Shown here piece after piece: positions 60,330 to 64,000 of a stretch of DNA of 64,000 nt. Origin of the DNA: Paenibacillus riograndensis SBR5 (GTDB lineage: Bacteria > Bacillota > Bacilli > Paenibacillales > Paenibacillaceae); the NCBI RefSeq assembly GCF_000981585.1, contig NZ_LN831776.1, forward strand, positions 1,069,001 through 1,133,000, in the 5' to 3' direction. Position 1 is the first letter of the stretch; every line of letters starts with the position of its first letter. The translations under genes were made by a program, and so were the position numbers. The notes under the pieces are model-generated. The model was not told where the DNA came from. It made no database searches and saw only the letters and a list, made by a program, of their open reading frames with translations.

Positions 60330-61157
60330 TCATTCCTGGCCTGGCCGTGTCTGATCCGGGGAGGCTTGATAAAGGGCCAGTGCCTTCAAAGCGGATTCCC
60401 GCATGCGTTTTTTTAGCCAGCTCCCTTCCACGATCCTTACCCGTTTGCCCAAAAAGCGCATTTTGGACAGGACATATTCCCCTTCATTGCCCAGATAGGT
60501 TAAGGAGATGAAATAGGTGTCCTTTTCCTCATCATACCGGACTTCCTTCTCAAAGCAGGAAAAGGCGTAGAGAATCCGCGACAATTCCTTGTTGTAGCCG
60601 GGGAGAACTTCAATCACGACGCTCTGTCTGCGGCTTTCCAGAATTCGCTGAATCTCAGCTTGAGTCGTGCGGACAAGCTCAGGAGAGGCCGGGATTTCGC
60701 ATACTGCTGCTATTTTTTGGAGCCGGATGCTCATAAAGTCGCGGCGTGTCCAGCTGTACCACAGCAGATACCATTCCCTTTTGACCATGGAATATTCCAG
60801 GCGGTAGGGGAGACCGGACTGCTCCGGTCCGGGTTGCCCGTTGGTCAGGCCAAAACTCACCTGAATGCCTTGGTGATGCTGAATACTGCGGCGCAGCACG
60901 CGCACCAGCGGATGATAGACCTGTACCTCTGTGGTCGGAGCCTTATGGATCAAATCCTCTGCGATCTCCATAGCCTCTTCCTGCTCCACCAGCGACCTCA
61001 GCTTATCAAGCGTCACCCCGGAAAACGCTTCGGCCGCAGACGGATGGCCCAGCATCAGCTTCAGCCAGGAGCGTTCATGTGAAGTTGAGAGAAAGACACC
61101 GGTATCCTCCATACGGGAGATGACGCGGTAATTAAAGATTTTCTCAAAAGGATTCAT
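60330..61157 (-). CDS. WYL domain regulator 2
   Basis: This 275-residue protein starts at ATG 61157, inside the end of the upstream WYL gene (14-base overlap). It has an N-terminal helical part, a WYL domain (VKREWYLLWYSWTRRDFMSIRLQKI, quoted as a pattern; about residues 155-180) and a C-terminal WCX-like part (FLGKRVRIVEGSWLKKRM). No N-terminal DNA-binding helix-turn-helix is obvious, so it may need its partner. WYL domains often bind nucleic acid or nucleotides in defence and RNA-related regulators. Confidence 0.78.
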   Translation of the reverse strand: MNPFEKIFNYRVISRMEDTGVFLSTSHERSWLKLMLGHPSAAEAFSGVTLDKLRSLVEQEEAMEIAEDLIHKAPTTEVQVYHPLVRVLRRSIQHHQGIQVSFGLTNGQPGPEQSGLPYRLEYSMVKREWYLLWYSWTRRDFMSIRLQKIAAVCEIPASPELVRTTQAEIQRILESRRQSVVIEVLPGYNKELSRILYAFSCFEKEVRYDEEKDTYFISLTYLGNEGEYVLSKMRFLGKRVRIVEGSWLKKRMRESALKALALYQASPDQTRPGQE

Positions 61158-62466
61158 AGTAGTCCAGAATCTCCTTCCATTCGGCCACCAGCTCCTCACG
61201 GAGCTGTCTTGGAGCCAGCACTTCACAGCTTGAGCCAAAGCTGCGCAGCCAGGGTTTGATTTCTGTCGTTCCGTTCACAGTGATTTCATAGATGAAAAAG
61301 TGCAGAGCTTCCTCTGTAATCGTCCCCCACTGCCCTTGCAGCAGCACACGCTCCTTCACAAAATTACGGGCGGAGTCCCTGCGCTGCGGATTGAGGAATT
61401 TGGCACGGACAGTAACGGGACGCCCGGTGTCGATCAGCCAGCTGGTGGAGATTTTCTGCTCCAGAGCAGATTTTTCGGCCAAGAACAACTCTTCGGCAAC
61501 GGTCTCACCTGCTTCAATTTGCATCATGCCTTCCAGCCGGTATTTACGGATACCCTGGTGTTTGCTATGGGTGAGTAAATACCATCTGCCGTACTGATGA
61601 TCGTAGACGATCTTGAGCGGCAGCGCTGTTTCAGTTCGGCCGCTGGATTCACGCTCGAAAAGGGGATTGGTGTTTTGGGAGGCATAGCTGGTGCTGGCTT
61701 TTGGTGAGAAGTAGAGAAACTGAACTTTGCGGCGGCCCCTGATCGCTGAGAGCAGTACAGACAAGTGGGCTTCATCCAGAATTCTGGAATAATAATGGTA
61801 TTTATATAGAAAAGGCTCAATCGCCTGCTTCTCCTCATCCTGCCGGACCAGCTCTTTTTTCAGACTGTCGCGCAGCAAATAGCCTTGGACAGAGGGCAGC
61901 TGGGTATTGGCCATAATATCCACGAAGTCGAACAGATCCAGCAGTTCCTCCCTGGACAATTGCCTAACCAGATCATTGTTGAGCCGGTAGCGGTAAGGGC
62001 GCGGACCTGCCCCTTTGACAATCGCCCCTACTTCCTCCAAATATTTCAGATCGCCGCGGATCGTTTTTTCATCGGGAAAAGCGCTGTCCAGGTCCAGTCC
62101 GCTGCAGCAAATGTCCAGCAGATCTCTCATGCTCAGCTCTTGACTGTCGTTCAGGGCAGCAAGAATCCGTGAGATTCTCAGACTTTCGGTTTCCTTGAGT
62201 GACTTGGCCTGAAAAAGAAACAGCAGCAGAGGATCGGCGGATTCATAGTAATTAGACCGGAACGCATCGGTGAAGACTTGGCCTTGTGCTTCCGGCGGCT
62301 GTTCCAGCAGAGTGTTAGCGACTTCCTTCAGCTTCTTCAGGGTTTTATCGAAGGTATGGACCGAGATGCCGAGACGTTCGGCAAACTGCTGGCGGCTGTA
62401 AGCACCGCTGGTCAATACCAGCATCCGCAGAAACTGGATTTCCTTATCAAAGCTTTCCTTGGCCAT
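61144..62466 (-). CDS. WYL domain regulator 1 with helix-turn-helix
   Basis: This 440-residue protein has an N-terminal helix-turn-helix (SRQQFAERLGISVHTFDKTL, about residues 24-43), a second winged part (about 115-165), and a WYL domain (PLKIVYDHQYGRWYLLTHSK, about 295-315, then IRKYRLEGM). A C-terminal WCX region follows. GGAGGCTGCC precedes the ATG. It is divergent from the Y RNA/rsr unit and shares its upstream region, so it is a good candidate regulator of that unit; this is inference from position. Confidence 0.83.
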   Translation of the reverse strand: MAKESFDKEIQFLRMLVLTSGAYSRQQFAERLGISVHTFDKTLKKLKEVANTLLEQPPEAQGQVFTDAFRSNYYESADPLLLFLFQAKSLKETESLRISRILAALNDSQELSMRDLLDICCSGLDLDSAFPDEKTIRGDLKYLEEVGAIVKGAGPRPYRYRLNNDLVRQLSREELLDLFDFVDIMANTQLPSVQGYLLRDSLKKELVRQDEEKQAIEPFLYKYHYYSRILDEAHLSVLLSAIRGRRKVQFLYFSPKASTSYASQNTNPLFERESSGRTETALPLKIVYDHQYGRWYLLTHSKHQGIRKYRLEGMMQIEAGETVAEELFLAEKSALEQKISTSWLIDTGRPVTVRAKFLNPQRRDSARNFVKERVLLQGQWGTITEEALHFFIYEITVNGTTEIKPWLRSFGSSCEVLAPRQLREELVAEWKEILDYYESF

Positions 62467-62642
62467 GGCAGCCTCCGATCATACGTAATAGACAGCTAAC
62501 TTCTATTGTACCAGCGGAGGCAAATGGAGAAAATGGAGAAGTTTCTCTGTAGTCGTAATACTTCCGCCATGTTCGCCGGGAAGAAAATAAGCGAAGATGA
62601 ATACAAGAAAGCCAAAGCTGCAAAGCGGAGCTGACTTGAAAA

Positions 62643-62782
62643 GATTCTCCGAGGCGCACGGACGGGGTACTTCGCCTTTTAAGCGACCTGTCGCTGGTTC
62701 GACTCCAGCTTTCTTCAATAGAAGGAATAGCTCAGTGGTAGAGCAGTCTGTGCCTGTCCAATCTTGTTTTCCTCGGAGGATC
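62643..62782 (+). ncRNA. Y RNA 1 (YrlA-like) with circularly permuted tRNA mimic
   Basis: The ends form a 12-bp stem: GATTCTCCGAGG (62643-62654) with CCTCGGAGGATC (62771-62782), one wobble. An internal loop CGCAC versus a T-rich strand follows, then a second helix GGACGGGGTAC/GTGCCTGTCC (62660-62670/62750-62759) with a bulged G. A small hairpin TCGC/GCGA (62672-62685) comes next. The inner module reads: T-arm GCTGGTTCGACTCCAGC (62693-62709), acceptor 3' strand TTTCTTC, loop AATA, acceptor 5' strand GAAGGAA, TA, D-arm GCTCAGTGGTAGAGC (62730-62744). This is a tRNA opened in the anticodon and joined at the acceptor, as in YrlA RNAs. The adjacent Ro60 gene supports it. Confidence 0.85.
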
Positions 62783-62790
62783 AGGCTAGA

Positions 62791-62895
62791 CGCAAAGCGA
62801 GGCGTCTGAAAGGGATCCTTCGACTATTAAGGGAATAGAATTGACAGTGCCTGATGGCACTGACAGGCCTTTTCAACTCTATTCCTCGCTTTGTG
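62791..62895 (+). ncRNA. Y RNA-like module 2 (no tRNA mimic)
   Basis: The terminal stem is CGCAAAGCGAGG (62791-62802) with CCTCGCTTTGTG (62884-62895), one wobble, again ending GAGG/CCTC and followed by CG. The second helix is TGAAAGG/CCTTTTCA with a bulged U. An apical hairpin CCTT/AAGG (TTCGACTATTAAGG) aligns with the TTCGCC...AAGCGA hairpin of module 1. In place of the tRNA part there is a hairpin CAGTGCC/GGCACTG. An alternative AGACGC/GCGTCT hairpin could compete with the terminal stem. Confidence 0.6.
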
Positions 62896-62906
62896 CAAAC
62901 CATCAA

Positions 62907-63022
62907 GCCGGTGAGGCGCCGGGTCGGGTTACTTCACACTCCAACGTGACCAATGAATTACCCTGGGCAATACGGCAGGTTCGACTCCTGCAAGACACCT
63001 GTCCCGCCTTTTCCTCACCGGC
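62907..63022 (+). ncRNA. Y RNA-like module 3, abutting the rsr ribosome binding site
   Basis: A perfect 10-bp terminal stem GCCGGTGAGG/CCTCACCGGC (62907-62916/63013-63022) is followed by CGCC and a second helix GGGTCGGG/CCTGTCCC. GTTACTTCAC...GTGA matches the apical hairpin of module 1. A T-arm-like hairpin GCAGGTTCGACTCCTGC lies at about 62976-62992, but no acceptor or D-arm follows. The 3' strand CCTGTCC...TTTTCCTC is nearly identical to module 1. The stem ends ten bases before GGAGG of rsr. Confidence 0.72.
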
Positions 63023-63045
63023 ATTGAATTTAGGAGGTTATGAAT

Positions 63046-64000
63046 ATGAGCTTTGCTTCCAAGCTGTTTAGTTCCAAGAAGCCAAATGCCCGGAACCAGG
63101 AAGGGTATCCTGCTTATACGCGTTCTGTGGAAGAGCAGTATCTGCAGATGCTTTTAACTAACACAATGAGTAACACGTTCTATGCCGACCAGCAGGAGCT
63201 TCTAGATAATGCGGCGGAGCTGCATGAGCAAATGGCCCTTGAACAGCCGGAGTTTATGGCTAAAGCGCTGATCTATGCCCGCAGCGAAGGGTTCATGAGA
63301 CTTCAGCCGCTGTTCGGGCTGGCGGTGCTGTCCGGCACCCGTCCGGATGTGTTCGCTAAAGTCTTCAAGAAGGTTGTGCAAATCCCGTCAGACCTGTCCG
63401 ATTTCCTGACGATCCTGCAAGGATTGGGACGCGGGGAGGGGGGCCGTGCGGTGAAGCGGCAGGTCAATCTGTTCCTGGCGGGAATCAGCGAATACTGGGC
63501 GCTGAAATACAATGGCCGCGGCCGTGGCCGTGGCTACAGTCTCGGCGATGCCATTGCCACGGCTCATCCGAAGCCGGCCGATCTCAAGCAGCAGGCCTTG
63601 TTCCGTTACTTGCGCGGCCAGGAGGCTAATCTGGCGCTTCTGCCTCAGGTGGAAGCCATGGAGAAGCTGAAGCAGGCCGGGTCTGCCGAGGAGCAGATCG
63701 CCTGGATCGAGCGGGGCAAGCTTCCTTACTCAGCCGTAACGGGGGCGATCAAACCTTCACAGGAAGTCTGGAATGCCATCCTGTACCAGATGCCGACGTT
63801 TGCGCTGCTCCGCCATTTGAATACGCTCTTGCGGTCCGGCGTGCTTGCAGATCAGAAGAACTTGGATTATGTTGTGGGCAGGCTGGTGGACCAGGATGCA
63901 CTGCGCAAGGCAAGAATTCTGCCTTTCCGTTTTGCCACGGCGTTCCGTCAGGTCAGCGAGCCCGAGCTTCGGGATGCGCTGAGGGAAGCTGTTGACCTGA
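63046..64000 (+). CDS. rsr: Ro60 orthologue Rsr (TROVE domain), N-terminal part
   Basis: The frame is open from ATG 63046 to the window end, so 318 residues are visible. It is the TROVE ring of helical repeats: YTRSVEEQYLQMLLTNTMSNTFYA near the start (pattern), FMAKALIYARSEGFMRLQPL, and the conserved LKYNGRGRGRGYSLGDAIATAHPKP-type segment (about residues 150-180; Gly/Arg-rich insert GRGRGRG). TROVE proteins hold misfolded RNA ends in the ring and Y RNA on the outside, and act with exonucleases. The start follows TAGGAGG at eight bases. The von Willebrand A-like C-terminal domain would lie beyond the window. Confidence 0.92.
   Translation, partial: MSFASKLFSSKKPNARNQEGYPAYTRSVEEQYLQMLLTNTMSNTFYADQQELLDNAAELHEQMALEQPEFMAKALIYARSEGFMRLQPLFGLAVLSGTRPDVFAKVFKKVVQIPSDLSDFLTILQGLGRGEGGRAVKRQVNLFLAGISEYWALKYNGRGRGRGYSLGDAIATAHPKPADLKQQALFRYLRGQEANLALLPQVEAMEKLKQAGSAEEQIAWIERGKLPYSAVTGAIKPSQEVWNAILYQMPTFALLRHLNTLLRSGVLADQKNLDYVVGRLVDQDALRKARILPFRFATAFRQVSEPELRDALREAVDL

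Follow-up and report, generated by a model that had tools for sequence, protein, structure and literature searches.

Which RNAs are encoded directly upstream of the Ro60 gene (rsr) of Paenibacillus riograndensis SBR5, and what would one Ro60 protein do with three of them? A sequence-only reading of the window (the whole 64,000-nucleotide stretch of DNA analysed here, contig positions 1069001-1133000 in a genome of 7.92 Mb) had proposed three tandem Y RNA modules immediately before rsr. The reading we prefer, at a probability of roughly three in four, is that three Y RNAs arise from the locus and act as adaptors bound by Rsr, with one docking stem and three heads, one of which would be a full tRNA mimic. 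The common stem, the separate heads, the covariation, the co-occurrence with rsr and the four tRNA arms in the head of module 1 are demonstrated below at the level of sequence. The features of the locus are the following.

60330..61238, minus strand: second, weakly WYL-like gene, behind the first WYL gene (15.3 bits against a Pfam cut-off of 21.8)
61144..62466, minus strand: WYL/WCX-domain regulator gene, divergent from the array
62553..62575, plus strand: conserved upstream element TCGTAATACTTnCGCCATGTTCG, followed by a -10-like site (GATGA at 62596-62600)
62643..62782, plus strand: module 1, YrlA-type Y RNA with Y stem and permuted tRNA domain (script parse and covariance models)
62651..62654, plus strand: module 1 Y stem, 5' GAGG, partner CCTC at 62771-62774, nearly unvarying in 76 relatives
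62660..62666, plus strand: module 1 second helix, 5' strand GGACGGG, partner CCTGTCC at 62753-62759
62673..62687, plus strand: module 1 anticodon-arm equivalent (tRNA positions 29-43)
62676-62682, plus strand: module 1 anticodon-like loop CTTTTAA, triplet TTT at 62678-62680
62693..62709, plus strand: module 1 T arm (tRNA positions 49-65)
62710..62727, plus strand: module 1 acceptor stem, 3' strand 62710-62716 and 5' strand 62721-62727 with a 4-nt loop between, no CCA end
62728..62747, plus strand: module 1 U8, A9, D arm (62730-62744), position 26 and positions 27-28, the last two pairing with 42-43
62791..62895, plus strand: module 2, Y-type stem, head without a tRNA part
62907..63022, plus strand: module 3, Y-type stem, small hairpin after CUUC; of the tRNA parts, the T arm only
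63040..63999, plus strand: rsr (Ro60 orthologue, TROVE and vWA_Ro60), cut by the window end

The rsr gene starts at 63040 or 63046, and its full frame of 501 aa is present in a relative (L002). The protein carries the Pfam domains TROVE and vWA_Ro60 and matches the solved Rsr 2nvo (E 4.1e-21). Its score of 90.7 against the NCBI Rsr equivalog cut-off of 900, taken with these matches, marks it as a divergent Ro60 orthologue. The closest named relatives by Rsr are P. jilunlii (97%) and P. helianthi (90%).

All three modules have a terminal stem with GAGG/CCTC, a U-rich 3' run, GG-rich and CC-rich second strands and then CUUC, as the common plan proposed earlier had it. In module 2 the 5' internal-loop motif is CGU instead of the CGC of modules 1 and 3, and the second helix is missing from the consensus fold. 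The second strand pair of module 1 is GGACGGG/CCUGUCC, and the 3' strands said to be shared by modules 1 and 3 (CCUGUCC..UUUUCCUC) are indeed present in both. A covariance model, R1, was built from 76 module-1-type RNAs only, with modules 2 and 3 left out. It matched these two modules at E 3.5e-7 and 2.1e-7, respectively (104,566 bases searched). As neither belonged to its training set, the likeness of the three modules is not due to chance.

The suggested check with the Rfam bacterial Y RNA model stayed below the cut-off. At the gathering threshold Rfam gave zero matches in the window; RF02553 (YrlA) reached 35.8 bits on module 1 against a cut-off of 69, over model positions 23-89 only, and did not match module 2 or module 3 even when E values as high as 10 were allowed. 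The Rfam test alone would therefore have failed here, and R1 finds Y RNAs below the Rfam cut-off. A motif test on the Y stem also failed, the Paenibacillus strands being CGAGGCGC../UUUUCCUCG and those of the RF02553 model CGAAUGC../CUUGUCG. Because of the score below cut-off and the different stem motif, module 1 stands beside RF02553 and is not a curated member of it.

For the conservation analysis, module DNA was taken from the region 5' of rsr in 35 named loci and in further family genomes. The distinct parsed modules of types 1, 2 and 3 numbered 77, 60 and 48, of which 76, 50 and 45 entered sequence-only MAFFT alignments: A1 (76 module-1 RNAs), A2 (45 of module-3 type) and A3 (50 of module-2 type). 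A1 omits the misparsed first module of L033. A2 omits L026, with a misparsed end, and L057 and L095, which were wrongly filed as type 3. A3 omits the false starts L074 and L075, the second modules of L103, L105 and L111, and five modules in third place whose T arm was not recognised (L017, L024, L025, L030 and L071).

Unguided RNAalifold predicted 34, 21 and 16 pairs in A1, A2 and A3, of which 18, 11 and 7 were kept through double changes. The named structures kept 98.2, 98.0 and 95.3% of pair cells among relatives for types 1, 3 and 2, with 20, 11 and 7 pairs changed on both sides; the type-2 count covers 13 pairs in two helices only. When partners were slid by one to three columns, 37-59% of cells paired. 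The real number of paired cells and the covariation score were never reached in 500 shuffles of A1, A2 or A3, and the count of double-changed pairs was reached in 1/500, 0/500 and 29/500, respectively. Related sequences can beat shuffles without any structure, so the slide control and the double changes were given more weight.

The four GAGG/CCTC pairs hardly vary, and the covariation consequently sits in the flanking and inner pairs. For the GAGG/CCTC pairs themselves, covariation speaks neither for nor against pairing. In module 2 the consensus fold of A3 has a small local AAG/CUU hairpin in place of the second Y helix, and a CCTT(T/C) strand lies near the 3' end in 55 of 57 parsed copies. 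The terminal helix with its internal-loop motif is conserved as structure, as expected of a bacterial Y RNA in the broad sense.

Co-occurrence was assessed in 394 family genomes. A genome was counted as rsr-positive at E below 1e-15, four weak matches (E 5.8e-5 to 5.9e-4) being dropped, and module 1 was called from R1 at 79 bits or more with the stricter Infernal filters. By these rules rsr occurs in 82 genomes and module 1 in 76 of those 82, against 0 of the 312 others; the next-best R1 match below the 79-bit set scored 56.4 bits. The six rsr-positive genomes without a full module 1 are G084, G249, G263, G264, G284 and G389, and G263, G264 and G284 hold rsr fragments only. In this set, the predicted module 1 gene adjoins rsr and is found only together with it. 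RtcB was considered as a marker of rsr-positive genomes and rejected as not specific, since 275 of the 394 family genomes carry it. The parse, the TROVE/vWA_Ro60 neighbour, the YrlA-like core, the covarying stems and the restriction of module 1 to rsr-positive genomes bear out the original proposal: the array is genuine and conserved, and Y RNAs, taken broadly, is the right name for its modules.

The array varies among the window and the 35 named loci. Three modules are present in 20 of the 36 arrays, two in 15 and one in a single array. By type there are fifteen '123', four '122', seven '12', six '13', two '23', one '1' and one '11' arrays; the first module of L029 was dropped from this tally as a duplicate sequence, and L029 is counted among the threes. 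Modules 2 and 3 are each absent from some arrays, the array of P. jilunlii (L009) for example having no module 2, and the T arm in the third module of the '122' arrays is degenerate or interrupted. In P. helianthi (L010, counted as two-module) the first module retains the tRNA-like part and has lost the 5' Y strand; no exact copy of the upstream element was seen at that locus (L010:3581-4006). In genome G131 a further YrlA stands alone some 7 kb upstream of the rsr array and is accompanied by an element copy of its own (L230:1982-2201).

This variation bears on whether the three structures are separate RNAs at all, or a cis-acting leader of the rsr mRNA through which Rsr would control its own synthesis. 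The modules and rsr lie on the same strand, and in the window 17 bases separate the end of module 3 from the earliest possible start of rsr, a closeness seen in many relatives. The distance is variable, however, and reaches about 390 bases in L042, while the lone YrlA of G131 stands kilobases away from rsr and, in Rhizobium, YrlA lies downstream of rsr. A leader would moreover have no need of a full tRNA mimic, and we regard this explanation as improbable. Separate RNA ends are an assumption of the adaptor reading, because a simple scan showed no sigma-70-type promoter and just one terminator-like site, the T arm itself.

Each module was said to carry a different inner part, and this proved correct: a permuted tRNA in module 1, no tRNA part in module 2 and a T arm in module 3. 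That the inner part of module 1 is an entire permuted tRNA, and that module 3 has a T arm, had been missed. In tRNA numbering, the columns of A1 run 29-31, a 7-nt loop 32-38, 39-43, the variable region 44-48 ending in C48, the T arm 49-65, the acceptor strand 66-72, a short loop (AATA in the window), 1-7, U8, A9, the D arm 10-25, 26 and 27-28. The head therefore has all four tRNA arms in circularly permuted order (29-72, short loop, 1-28). The Y stem enters the tRNA between positions 28 and 29, so that, given this order, it exits where the anticodon stem is interrupted in its 5' strand. The T arm, the hairpin-closed acceptor stem and the D arm occur in RF02553 order in module 1 and 75 relatives, and U8, U33 and most signature bases of the T loop and D arm are invariant or nearly so in A1.

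RNAalifold recovered the anticodon arm of module 1 unprompted. At pair 31-39, 51 sequences have A-U and another 22 show a double change (21 C-G, 1 U-A), and pair 28-42 is A-U in 33, G-C in 33 and C-G in 9, with 42 cells doubly changed. An arm of standard length is present in 62 of the 76 rows, 60 of which have all five stem pairs. The five counted arm pairs together with U33 and a purine at 37 are found in 71 of 76 rows, and five rows fail. By eye, the anticodon-like hairpin is absent from L033 and L057, both outside A1.

On a FastTree phylogeny built without the loop, position 33 changed 0 times, positions 34, 35 and 36 changed 13, 19 and 9 times and the triplet 29 times, and U33 is present in all 76 RNAs. 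Written as DNA, the triplets are TTT (23), GTT (16), TCT (15), CTT (9), others (12) and one gapped; they are mostly of Lys, Asn and Arg type. In 67 of 76 loops the triplet is NNU (U36), the class of tRNAs that decode ANN codons. The changes at 34-36 beside none at 33 indicate that the frame of the loop is kept and its 'meaning' drifts mostly within NNU. tRNAs with U36-A37 carry t6A.

RF00005 in gene order scored 25 bits at 62661-62717, short of its gathering score of 29, and ARAGORN called no tRNA in the window. Once un-permuted, 76 of 76 module-1 RNAs were called by ARAGORN, against none of 760 full shuffles, none of the 76 once the arm was taken out and none of the 76 left in gene order. Un-permutation was set aside as proof of the anticodon arm, as 61-69 of 76 were still called with positions 27-43 shuffled and 72-76 of 76 with only the stem letters shuffled; the calls thus attest the D, T and acceptor part and not the anticodon arm. 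A search for a particular tRNA of the same genome as parent gave no clear candidate (30 loci for 87 tRNA matches), with a best local score of 35, to a tRNA-Asn.

The order 3' half before 5' half could also arise if module 1 were what decay has left of the junction between two tandem tRNA genes, its other features being coincidence. Such junctions do give a permuted order, and R1 positions 28-110 match one in the same genome at 44.4 bits. Against this stand the 76 relatives in which the RNA is conserved next to rsr, with a Y stem that covaries, and the lack of any match at 79 bits or more in the 312 rsr-negative genomes, which leave the idea barely credible. A survey of 299 genomes of the class with RF02553 was set aside: 166 had a match, none lay above the cut-off and 6 of 14 control genomes matched as well, and on reading, the matches appeared to be a mix of true Y RNAs and tRNA junctions.

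Beyond the family, searches with R1 and Rfam turn up YrlA-like RNAs next to rsr on plasmids and in phages. The run of three had been thought unusual. Arrays of several Y-like RNAs are not unique to this family, since a Novosphingobium plasmid (L161:3010-3760) has four R1 matches in a row after rsr (49.2, 45.6, 27.1 and 30.6 bits) and L145, L156 and L162 have three each after rsr, some of them weak. Going by the Novosphingobium plasmid, alphaproteobacteria may have Y RNA arrays as well.

The anticodon-like hairpin takes the form of a 13-nt insertion relative to the Rfam model in two RNAs, one from Rhizobium and one from Shinella. The loop of this Rhizobium hairpin reads UCGUUAA, without U33 in the register used, and the hairpin is absent from a second Rhizobium YrlA (96.5 bits). 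A script found 18 distinct YrlA cores in 39 loci, some of them close relatives (e.g. L144/L163), and a hairpin with U33 and purine 37 at a fixed place was present in 11 of these 18, against 0.94 +/- 0.96 in 2000 shuffles. By this count the anticodon arm is more widespread among YrlA RNAs, as an optional part. Anticodon-like hairpins that have U33 and purine 37 were noticed in the YrlA RNAs of L144, L150, L154, L168 and L170, which come from a mycobacteriophage, from Shinella, from a cyanobacterial plasmid and from uncultured viral contigs. A flexible un-permutation scan of the 18 cores was uninformative and was rejected (18/18 real and 16-18/18 shuffled cores called).

Comparison with known systems places module 1 close to YrlA (RF02553; Salmonella structure 6CU1, known here from part of PMC8394870), with which it shares the Y-stem closure, the T arm, the hairpin-closed acceptor stem, the D arm and the position beside rsr. 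According to the part of PMC8394870 drawn on here, the YrlA domain resembles the D, T and acceptor arms. Module 1 differs in having the anticodon arm that completes the tRNA, for which the RF02553 model has no counterpart. Red algal permuted tRNA genes also place the 3' half before the 5' half, and their product is a working tRNA. Module 1 shares this 3'-half-first order and differs in that its acceptor end is closed by a 4-nt loop and a Y stem is attached. The RYPER complex of Deinococcus radiodurans (Rsr-Y RNA-PNPase), in which a Y RNA tethers Rsr to PNPase (PMC7790460, in part), offers an Rsr-bound Y RNA and the idea of a scaffold; compared by description and not by sequence, the tRNA mimicry of modules 1 and 3 sets them apart from the Deinococcus Y RNA.

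By analogy with the known bacterial Ro RNPs, the outer face of Rsr would hold the Y stem and the head would dock a partner, which may be PNPase or another tRNA-binding protein. If the head docks the partner, an exchange of RNAs would give a single Rsr ring alternative partners. The locus would also offer three natural adaptors of one Ro60 for comparison within one organism.

The DNA between the WYL genes and module 1 holds TCGTAATACTTnCGCCATGTTCG and a -10-like site, for which the consensus in relatives is GATGATA; the element is exact in 27 of the 35 named loci, and both WYL-type genes stand divergent before the array, within 4 kb, in 30 of 35. Copies were counted by pattern scans of selected genomes with a reversed-pattern control. 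With up to three mismatches there were 23 element matches in 15 genomes (12 rsr-positive, 3 rsr-negative) and one for the reversed control; with up to two mismatches, 27 in 25 genomes (16 rsr-positive, 9 rsr-negative) and none for the control. At two mismatches or fewer the rsr-positive genomes G249 and G255 have no element, and the genome of the window has no second copy at three or fewer; its RtcB gene lies about 617 kb from the array.

For all 26 copies outside rsr arrays and outside the lone YrlA of G131, the first same-strand downstream genes were assigned by Pfam, and the slipin of L228 by tblastn. Ten copies lie before slipin (Band_7) and/or RtcB genes and five before Hen1, Hen1-Pnkp, RlaP or RlaP-Hen1; behind eight comes a single family of proteins, about 700 aa long, that sources name TerD family, and three were left unassigned. 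In a check of 14 genomes, the WYL gene (E below 1e-30) was present in 6 of 6 with the element and 2 of 8 without. Four rsr-negative genomes with both have the WYL gene divergent beside an element copy, before Hen1-Pnkp, slipin or RlaP.

The promoter-like element (62553-62600 in the window; L224-L250 in relatives), common to Y RNA/rsr, slipin-RtcB, Hen1/Pnkp/RlaP and TerD-like genes, thus defines a candidate WYL-controlled RNA-repair regulon, in which the WYL protein presumably binds the element. In Salmonella, rsr, the Y RNAs and rtcBA form one operon (PMC7790460, in part). The likeness to this RtcR-controlled rsr-yrlBA-rtcBA operon lies in Y RNAs, Rsr and an RNA ligase under one control; here a WYL-type gene would take the place of RtcR, and the candidate regulon spans several operons that vary between genomes and include Hen1, Pnkp and RlaP. 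The shared element suggests that the Y RNAs are made along with the RNA-repair enzymes on activation by the WYL regulator, for which damage to RNA or tRNA is the probable trigger.

Another possibility is that the anticodon loop of module 1 is bait, either a decoy or a damage sensor for anticodon nucleases. Cleavage of the loop might protect genuine tRNAs or flag the Rsr particle, and co-regulated ligases might reseal it, a sequence of events that we put forward tentatively. The full tRNA shape with its loop, the fast triplet (29 changes) beside a fixed U33 and a U36 in 67 of 76, and the same element before Hen1, Pnkp, RlaP and RtcB genes in relatives all fit the bait idea. In PMC7790460 (in part), the YrlA tRNA-like domain is suggested to act as a competitive inhibitor of an anticodon nuclease, but Salmonella YrlA, which may or may not have an anticodon arm, is described there as no substrate of that nuclease. 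We hold the bait explanation to be possible and rather doubtful; it is compatible with the adaptor model and does not exclude it.

A wider conjecture, which we advance with reserve, is that many bacterial Y RNAs, bound to Ro60, contain a complete, circularly permuted tRNA whose anticodon loop looks functional. In the Paenibacillaceae such an RNA would operate within a WYL-controlled tRNA/RNA-repair regulon, as a bait for anticodon damage, a sensor of it or a docking model, with the sister heads giving the Ro60 ring other partners. Through a U33-constrained, fast-triplet anticodon arm and an element common to RtcB, Hen1, Pnkp and RlaP, the purpose of the tRNA-like part of Y RNAs becomes directly testable.

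A literature search with partial coverage of bacterial Y RNA papers (drawing further on parts of PMC4726728, PMC12282133, PMC9569102 and PMC4012209) returned no report of an anticodon arm in any Y RNA and no link of Ro60 or Y RNA to WYL, slipin or Pnkp-Hen1. As far as checked, three things are new: a permuted tRNA in complete form, a single type of stem that carries three different heads, and a promoter-like element that RNA-repair genes have as well. The novelty of the anticodon arm is uncertain because of this partial coverage.

PADLOC gave no matches for six proteins. One study reportedly concerns a Pnkp1-Rnl-Hen1 complex. The TerD-named protein of about 700 aa (L225:1715-3835 and seven relatives) has no Pfam match, and in the P. 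jilunlii-like genome G015 the gene between the element and RtcB (L226:2077-3641) seems to be split by a frameshift when compared with L224.
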